From NCBI GenBank assembly GCA_017505525.1, contig JAFVPB010000003.1, forward strand, positions 1 through 57,666: a stretch of 57,666 nt of DNA. The letters are read 5' to 3'. Below are positions 7,790 through 8,482 of the stretch, piece after piece. The position numbers and the translations under genes are program-made. Source of the stretch: Clostridia bacterium. GTDB taxonomy: Bacteria > Bacillota > Clostridia > UMGS1883. The notes below the pieces were generated by a model. It worked only from the letters and a program-made list of their open reading frames with translations, was not told the origin of the DNA and did no database searches. How positions within the stretch are numbered: position 1 is the first letter of the stretch; the number at the start of each line of letters is the position of its first letter.

Positions 7790-7863
7790 GGCGCCATAGC
7801 CAAGTGGTAAGGCAGAGGCCTGCAAAGCCTTTATCCCCAGTTCAAGTCTGGGTGGCGCCTCCA
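7790..7863 (+). tRNA. tRNA-Cys (GCA)
   Basis: A 74-nt cloverleaf with perfect acceptor GGCGCCA/TGGCGCC, anticodon loop CTGCAAA (anticodon GCA), and encoded CCA at 7861-7863. The CCA is also the first three bases of the repeat element that follows. Confidence 0.96.
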
Positions 7864-8089
7864 GAAAAAAAGACAGATTTCGACAAGAAATCTGTCTTTT
7901 TTTCAGCTAAATTCGCTTGCGCGAGCTAAATTGAGCAAGCTCAGCTAAATTGCCTGCGGCAGCTAAATGTGCTACGCACGCTGAAAGCGAATTTAATTTT
8001 GCTACTCCAAAGGAGTTATTTAGCTATTGCGGAGCAATAATTTCGCTTTGCAACTTGTTGCAAAATTTAGCTAAAATCTGTTGCATCTA
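7861..8089 (+). repeat. Hairpin-array repeat element, copy 1
   Basis: The element starts at the tRNA-Cys CCA. It opens with a perfect 17-bp terminator stem (7865-7881 with 7887-7903, loop GACAA), then a string of mini-hairpins joined by the linker AGCTAAAT: TCGC-ttgc-GCGA, TGAGC-aa-GCTCA, TGCC-tgc-GGCA and GTGC-tac-GCAC. In the second half the linker is inverted (ATTTAGCT) and the hairpins are ACTCC-aaa-GGAGT, TATTGC-gga-GCAATA and TTTGCAAC-tt-GTTGCAAA. The outermost linkers are complementary (7905-7913 with 8064-8072), so the whole unit can close on itself. An alternative 10-bp pairing joins 7909-7918 with 7985-7994. No protein is encoded convincingly. Confidence 0.85.
7865..7903 (+). terminator. 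Terminator of tRNA-Cys / tRNA operon
   Basis: A 17-bp perfect stem with loop GACAA and seven trailing T residues, two bases after the tRNA 3' CCA. It works as a terminator in either orientation and is the first part of repeat copy 1. Confidence 0.92.
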
Positions 8090-8104
8090 TTATGAACGTG
8101 AAAG

Positions 8105-8334
8105 CCAGAAAAAAAGACATTTTTCAACAAAGAAAAATGTCTTTTTTTCAGCTAAATTCGCCTGACGGCGAGCTAAATGTGCTGTTGCACGCTAAATTAC
8201 TTCGTAGCTAAATTGACCTTCGGTCAGCTTTGGCGAATTTAATTTTGCTACTCCAAAGGAGTTATTTAGCTATTGCGGAGCAATAATTTAGCTTTGCACT
8301 TGTTGCAAAATTTAGCTAAAATAAATGGCATCTA
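8105..8334 (+). repeat. Hairpin-array repeat element, copy 2
   Basis: The second copy begins with the same CCAGAAAAAAAGAC as copy 1, although no tRNA precedes it. The terminator stem (8109-8125 with 8132-8148) differs in sequence but remains paired. The mini-hairpins are TCGCC-tgac-GGCGA, GTGC-tgtt-GCAC, TAC-ttc-GTA and TGACC-ttc-GGTCA, again joined by (A)GCTAAAT. The second half is nearly identical to copy 1. The long-range pair is AAATTCGCC (8154-8162) with GGCGAATTT (8232-8240). Compared with copy 1, both arms have changed together, so pairing is conserved while sequence is not. Confidence 0.85.
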
Positions 8335-8356
8335 AACCGTTCGGCTCTTCCAACTT

Positions 8357-8390
8357 AAAACGGCTTAACCAATAGGGTTAAGCCGTTTTT
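8357..8390 (+). terminator. Strong terminator after the repeat pair
   Basis: AAAACGGCTTAACC (8357-8370) pairs with GGTTAAGCCGTTTT (8376-8389), followed by a T-rich tail to about 8398. It closes the tRNA/repeat region, and the A-run on the other side lets it act in both directions. Confidence 0.88.
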
Positions 8391-8482
8391 CTTTTTTTCG
8401 CGCTTTTTGCGTTTTGACTGACTATTATATTTAGTATTGATGTAAACGACCATCTAATTTTATAACTCACAGAACTTCTGAA

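Follow-up and report, generated by a model that had tools for sequence, protein, structure and literature searches.

Two hairpin-array units behind a tRNA-Cys gene as probable members of an S23-linked mobile element family in Clostridia

Two hairpin-array units at a tRNA-Cys gene

The window (the whole stretch of DNA that we analyzed, 57,666 nucleotides of contig JAFVPB010000003.1 from a Clostridia bacterium) contains the tRNA cluster Val-Asp-Phe-Gly-Cys, as identified by ARAGORN. Two similar units lie directly behind tRNA-Cys (Table 1). Both follow a common plan. They open with an end hairpin (GAAAAAAA-stem-TTTTTTTC), after which AGCTAAAT connects four further hairpins; behind the centre, (A/G)GCGAATTTAATTT, come three more, with ATTTAGCT-type linkers, and then a tail that ends in CCA. 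The end hairpin of each unit is a perfect A-tract/T-tract hairpin, and its stem sequences are unlike between the two units while the pairing is kept.

An earlier note, made from the sequence alone, had described two covarying copies of an array of tiny hairpins at 7861-8334. We found the linkers, the hairpins, the stems of the end hairpins, and the long-range pairs as it had them, including the end hairpin and seven mini-hairpins per copy (four on the left and three on the right). Its bounds needed correction: they start 3 bp early, inside tRNA-Cys, and end 18 bp short. Also, the hairpin that it called a terminator is present but is part of the inserted unit.

Table 1. Features of the tRNA-Cys site in the window
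Feature	Position	Strand	Evidence or remark
tRNA-Cys (GCA), insertion target; units start directly 3' of CCA	7790..7863	+	ARAGORN; empty site in sister species G018 (L274)
Unit 1, complete inserted element, 244 bp, end ...GAAAGCCA	7864..8107	+	Site comparison
Unit 1 end hairpin GAAAAAAAGACAGATTTC-GACAA-GAAATCTGTCTTTTTTTC, terminator-like	7864..7904	+	All bases of stem paired, -23.0 kcal/mol
Unit 1 hairpin array: 4 hairpins with AGCTAAAT linkers, centre AAAGCGAATTTAA, 3 hairpins with ATTTAGCT-type linkers	7905..8072	+	Fold, covariation
Unit 1 tail AAAATCTGTTGCATCTATTATGAACGTGAAAGCCA	8073..8107	+	Also in L005 and L138; shortened in L017
Unit 2, complete inserted element, 245 bp, end ...TTCGGCTCTTCCA	8108..8352	+	Site comparison
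Unit 2 end hairpin GAAAAAAAGACATTTTTC-AACAAA-GAAAAATGTCTTTTTTTC	8108..8149	+	Stem fully paired, -19.8 kcal/mol
Unit 2 hairpin array, 4 + 3 hairpins, centre GGCGAATTTAATTT	8150..8317	+	Fold, covariation
Unit 2 tail AAAATAAATGGCATCTAAACCGTTCGGCTCTTCCA	8318..8352	+	Tail motif CATCTAAA shared with other units; in L013 it follows the S23 gene
Native tRNA-Cys terminator, pushed downstream by both units, ACTTAAAACGGCTTAACC..GGTTAAGCCGTTTTT	8353..8392	+	In G018 directly 3' of CCA as ACTAAAAACCGCTTAACCGAGTAAGGTTAAGCGGTTTTTG

Both units fold far better than dinucleotide shuffles: the z-scores of the fold energies are -7.6 (unit 1) and -10.4 (unit 2), and none of 200 shuffles was as good in either case. 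Among 22 aligned arrays with 29 local pairs, 96.5% of the cells are paired, versus 74.3% after shuffling. We counted 145 doubly changed cells versus 46.9 +/- 5.9 in shuffles, and 23 pairs were changed on both sides. Sliding the partner columns by 1-3 positions reduces the pairing in these arrays to 32-49%. When half-stems were exchanged between hairpins in 65 distinct arrays, Watson-Crick pairing across the four outer pairs fell from 3.75 to 1.94 in the left arm and from 3.58 to 1.81 in the right arm. The covariation and the half-stem exchanges bear out the earlier proposal that pairing is under selection while the sequence is free. Entire hairpins seem to act as exchangeable modules (for instance, TGCCTGCGGCA versus TACTTCGTA at one place).

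The long-range pair between the first hairpin and the centre does not vary among close copies, so they carry no covariation information about it. In a wider set, the pairing was 3.88 of 5 within copies versus 3.31 between copies, which is higher than in all 500 swaps, and the long-range pair is moderately supported.

In an Rfam search of the window, only the tRNAs reached the gathering threshold, and Gut-1 (threshold 50 bits) did not match. We disregarded weak matches to plant, plastid, and microRNA families as due to chance. The earlier note knew of no name for the arrays; this stands for the window units, which match no Rfam family, but a sibling with the linker GTGAAATA is partly known. Its left arm is the Gut-1 RNA (RF01706), which matched at or above the gathering score in eleven loci plus L002. 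The GTGAAAT siblings score 52.7-73.9 bits with the Gut-1 covariance model.

Copies, insertion sites, and movement

We used BLAST and pattern searches to count the copies in this genome, whose assembly is 95% complete. They lie in about 13 places in the 2.4 Mb, and 8 of these are in tRNA clusters. The linker-pair pattern has 44 matches in the genome and none in the reversed sequence. All of the copies are intergenic, with a terminator-like end hairpin.

To look more broadly, we scanned 84,980 species genomes for the pattern and found at least 100 stretches (>100). Among the matches listed, most are from rumen and gut assemblies of Clostridia or Oscillospiraceae, and the usual layout is four forward linkers followed by four reverse linkers. 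The units among these matches lie behind tRNA-Val, Met, Asn, Pro, Cys, or Glu, and are on the tRNA's strand wherever the array could be oriented. The genomes that we compared are mostly metagenome assemblies. Several pattern matches outside of Clostridia lack the +/- layout and were taken to be due to chance, and the viral contigs with the linker pattern mostly have short unrelated repeats. The earlier note would have been contradicted by a lack of further copies, by a lack of significant covariation, or by similar hairpins in shuffled sequence, and none of these applies; this is a large and mostly undescribed family in gut Clostridia, with many relatives sharing it, and the two window units belong to it.

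Comparison with a sister species (G018) indicates where the units begin and end. Its tRNA-Cys is 100% identical, and the sequence immediately behind it, ACTAAAAACCGCTTAACC..GGTTAAGCGGTTTTTG, corresponds to window positions 8353-8392. By this comparison, the site in G018 is an empty site. Since the terminator directly follows the CCA of an identical tRNA-Cys, the insertion point of both window units is exactly the 3' CCA. In another relative (G015), the identical position behind tRNA-Cys is occupied by the first part of a unit with a different linker, GTGAAATA.

At another site, on contig C49 of this genome, a unit separates tRNA-Lys from its terminator. In the relative G016, tRNA-Lys is followed by the terminator and then by the same downstream sequence as in C49, with no unit between. 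The C49 unit is 94% identical to unit 1 over about 235 bp, and it is 98.5% identical to a unit from another genome (L102) that lies behind a different tRNA-like remnant. Further downstream, C49 contains a GTGAAATA unit that ends in ..GGCTCACCA and then a decayed third unit. These tandem units point to serial insertion at CCA ends.

The sequence common to both junctions is CCA only (GGCGCCTCCA, GTGAAAGCCA, CGGCTCTTCCA), and no segment of the tRNA's 3' end is duplicated. As for the terminal inverted repeats and the fixed-length target duplication of a MITE that moves by a DDE transposase, the unit ends (GAAAAAAAGAC and ..CCA) do not form an inverted repeat, and the CCA at either side may be a 3-bp target duplication or may be borne by the element.

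Taken together, the empty site in the sister species, the near-identical copies behind different tRNAs, and the presence of about 13 places indicate that the units are mobile. Insertion exactly at CCA and in a single orientation is likewise shown. With the selected pairing, this fits the suggestion in the earlier note of a structured RNA or a mobile element that folds as single-stranded DNA. The note had also asked if other copies adjoin tRNA CCA ends, and many do. Some copies are not behind tRNAs (such as those on C68, C14, and C29), so the target rule is incomplete. Among units that are not behind tRNAs, those of L008, L009, L013, and L107 have an end hairpin TAGATTTAACAAAGTTAAATCTA that lies 3' of a -35/-10-like promoter (TTGNNN-17-TAGAAT). 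These units may insert at a promoter or may carry one.

We also noticed a different element, of 150-190 bp, behind a tRNA and a terminator in L002 (about 1785-2040; contig C49 of this genome, after tRNA-Lys), L006, L011, L250, and L284. Its parts are, in order, an inverted copy of the T-arm of its own tRNA, a core (GGGCAACGAGCG..GGTACTGC..GGTCGTCAAGCAGG), and a direct copy of the tRNA's 3' end. The core is common to the loci, and the tRNA-derived parts match whichever tRNA stands upstream. An Rfam search with this element gave no convincing match.

Association with S23 genes

Seven of the loci that were fetched by their arrays contain a gene for S23/IVP (PF05635, a four-helix bundle), which lies directly after the array or between its arms. 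There were no S23 genes elsewhere in these array-fetched loci. The S23 protein matches the solved structures 2RLD (E = 2e-32) and 2GSC. The window units contain no open reading frame for S23/IVP, and most of the copies in this genome lack it, but there are copies with the same linker that have it (for instance, on C14 and C29). This genome encodes four PF05635 proteins: two of the genes follow AGCTAAAT arrays, and the other two follow arrays with the linkers GTGAAATA and ATGAAG. Also, the tail motif of the S23-less units (TGTCATCTAAATCGTTC) is found at the end of an S23-bearing copy, L013. In L092 (7337-7962), L232, and L235, a left arm precedes S23 and an inverted right arm follows it, which is the layout expected of a full element, as in the rRNA intervening sequences.

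We obtained a second set of S23 loci by a class-wide search that made no use of arrays; these loci are from 90 of the 291 genomes that have PF05635. We call "classical" the branch of S23 with an N-terminal motif of the type (L/V)WQK(A/S). In 64 of 103 non-classical loci and in 5 of 24 classical loci, a 7-base word and its reverse complement recur in the surroundings of S23 more often than in any of 60 shuffles. Across Clostridia, most of the non-classical S23 genes have hairpin arrays or flanking heptamer repeats. A tRNA gene lies within 600 bp upstream on the same strand for 37 of 110 non-classical S23 genes and for none of the 24 classical ones; none of the 110 non-classical genes is behind a tRNA on the opposite strand.

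The type of linker follows the S23 clade. On a tree of S23 proteins, the linker type requires 16 changes, versus 54.8 in shuffles (none of 200 shuffles was as low), and all 18 members with the GCTAAAT linker are in one clade; this clustering is partly due to the array and S23 traveling together, so it is evidence of linkage, not of binding. Of these 18 members, 7 were fetched by the array itself and 11 were not. These sequence comparisons demonstrate the linkage to S23, and the association could partly reflect the shared descent of linked parts. In the tRNA-linked copies, S23 lies behind a terminator-like hairpin, so it could be expressed only by read-through or from an internal promoter.

Similar arrangements were seen elsewhere. 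By eye, plasmids of Monoglobus, Treponema, Bernardetia, and Nostoc (L425, L427, L428, and L429) have short tandem repeats 5' of S23 and their reverse complements 3' of it; the repeated words are TTAGTGA in Bernardetia and of the type CAAGTCG in Nostoc. The short tandem repeats of cyanobacteria may be arms of S23 elements. A scaffold from the human gut that was deposited as a phage (MT835815; L426) has tRNA-Arg, an end hairpin, a GTGATAT-linked hairpin array, and an S23 that is 67% identical to S23 from Clostridia. In the S23 clade MESPLL (L242, L385, L386, and L387), a left hairpin, AAAATCGAC..GTCGATTTT, lies directly 3' of the tRNA's CCA, and in L242 this hairpin is found again 3' of the S23 gene.

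Proposed mechanism, alternatives, and known systems

As we define it here, the S23-linked hairpin-array family has an end hairpin, a linker-joined left arm, a centre, an inverted right arm, and insertion at CCA, and the window units have all of these. We think it probable that they are non-autonomous members of this family of mobile elements, which would insert in the sense orientation, either after the CCA of a tRNA gene or behind an earlier unit, whose tail also ends in CCA. Fuller members carry a single gene, S23/IVP, just 3' of the array or between its arms, and no recognizable transposase. We infer that S23 is an array-binding protein with a part in movement. Specifically, S23 would recognize the array of its own family (the linker word and the hairpins) in trans, and it would be the element's own mobility factor, moving itself as well as the S23-less copies. 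Cutting and joining would be carried out by the host or by other functions. The end hairpin, as part of the unit, probably also terminates transcription of the tRNA after insertion, which would reduce the harm to the host. The folding molecule or intermediate may be RNA or single-stranded DNA. The data are compatible with both: an RNA route would be favored by the boundary at the mature tRNA end and by the likeness of PF05635 to Avd, and a single-strand DNA route could operate at replicating tRNA genes.

In a special form of this explanation, element RNA that is cut at CCA and ends in CCA would be reverse transcribed with the aid of S23 and would reinsert at tRNA ends. The boundary coincides with the mature tRNA end, which is marked at the RNA level; insertion is in the sense orientation only; the hairpins covary; and PF05635 resembles Avd, in both sequence and structure, which is an accessory protein of diversity-generating retroelements (DGRs) that is essential to their retrohoming (PMC10053308). 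On the other hand, neither this genome nor G011, with its five S23 genes, has a match to RVT_1 (some other S23-bearing relatives do contain RVT_1), and the array of the S23-less units lies behind a terminator-like hairpin, so we consider this special form rather unlikely. The same hairpin counts against an alternative in which the array is a structured regulatory or noncoding RNA (either a small RNA or the leader of the S23 mRNA) whose copies arose by passive duplication, because the transcription of many arrays behind it is doubtful. This alternative would explain the strong covariation of the hairpins and the location of the array in the 5' region of the S23 mRNA at many loci, and the sibling Gut-1 is filed as a noncoding RNA. 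But most of the copies here lack S23, and exact insertion at CCA, serial stacking at CCA ends, and polymorphic sites are traits of mobile elements, so we judge it to be improbable as a full account. A role for the RNA within a mobile element would be compatible with our preferred explanation.

Transposition as single-stranded DNA, of the IS200/IS605 or REP type, would have a Y1 transposase that reads the hairpins in trans and inserts the unit 3' of CCA. The end hairpins, the insertion 3' of a fixed short word with the same word at the right end, and the single orientation are all as expected. However, there are no matches to Y1_Tnp in this genome or in G013, both of which are rich in arrays or S23 genes, which suggests movement in a host that is free of Y1. 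REP elements keep one conserved hairpin, while here every hairpin differs. We consider this explanation to be very unlikely. Finally, the units could be ordinary intergenic terminator-like (BIME-like) repeats that are kept for termination, mRNA decay, or DNA topology and that spread by duplication. All of the copies are indeed intergenic and have a terminator-like end hairpin, but this scenario, which we find hardly credible, does not predict the exact CCA junctions, the empty sites, or the linkage between the linker and the S23 clade.

More broadly, we tentatively suggest that there might be a single new class of mobile elements, although we lean against so wide a grouping. Its members would have S23 as the one self-encoded protein, no transposase, integrase, or reverse transcriptase of their own, varying hairpin arrays as the substrate, and the 3' CCA of tRNAs as a general target. 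The rRNA intervening sequences, Gut-1, and the heptamer-flanked S23 genes of cyanobacteria, spirochaetes, and Bacteroidota would be branches of it. Our preferred explanation, that the window units are S23-linked mobile elements, could explain Gut-1, which is an orphan family in Rfam, and gives the S23/IVP family a context. It directs attention to transposition that targets tRNA ends and has no known enzymes, and it makes such a system testable: the many pairs of linker and S23 from separate clades are natural material for tests of specificity.

Several known systems share some of these features. Elements that integrate by tyrosine recombinases also use the 3' ends of tRNAs as sites, but here the junctions have just CCA in common instead of a long tRNA segment, there is no integrase, and the unit is just 244 bp. 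IS200/IS605 and REP/RAYT elements have hairpin-marked ends and insert beside a short fixed word with no evident long duplication; in contrast, no Y1 transposase was found in this genome (95% complete) and each unit has seven different hairpins. Unlike in DGRs with Avd, we saw no reverse transcriptase, template, or variable repeat at these loci. The lack of RVT_1 matches in this genome, at 95% completeness, also counts against other retroelements (group II, retron).

Gut-1 was listed by its discoverers as a noncoding RNA from human-gut sequences only (Weinberg et al. 2010; PMC2864571). It has three GUGAAAU-joined hairpins, and the GTGAAATA sibling shares its end hairpin, array layout, tail, and insertion at CCA with the window units. 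The Rfam model describes 77 nt of one arm as an sRNA, whereas the window units are whole inserted elements with another linker.

In the intervening sequence (IVS) of the 23S rRNA of Coxiella, tandem heptamers (GACAGAT) in variable number lie right before the S23 open reading frame (PMC4990558). The mobility of such sequences is a long-standing proposal, and the S23 of the Coxiella rRNA element is apparently not produced in vivo (PMC4990558), which speaks against our preferred explanation. Given these facts and Gut-1, pieces of the family were known; among open-licence papers in PMC, we found none that connects hairpin arrays or tRNA ends to S23 genes, and no description of the insertion at tRNA ends, the design of the array, or the linkage to S23. 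The IVSs, part of which encode S23/IVP, differ in that they lie inside rRNA helices and are excised by RNase III, while the units described here follow the CCA of tRNAs (tRNA-Cys in the window), outside of rRNA, and are covarying hairpin arrays, mostly without S23. Both are short elements in genes for stable RNAs with complementary arms around or before S23, and the heptamers of the IVSs resemble the linker or heptamer arrays described here. The best reading is that the family is related to the 23S rRNA intervening sequences.
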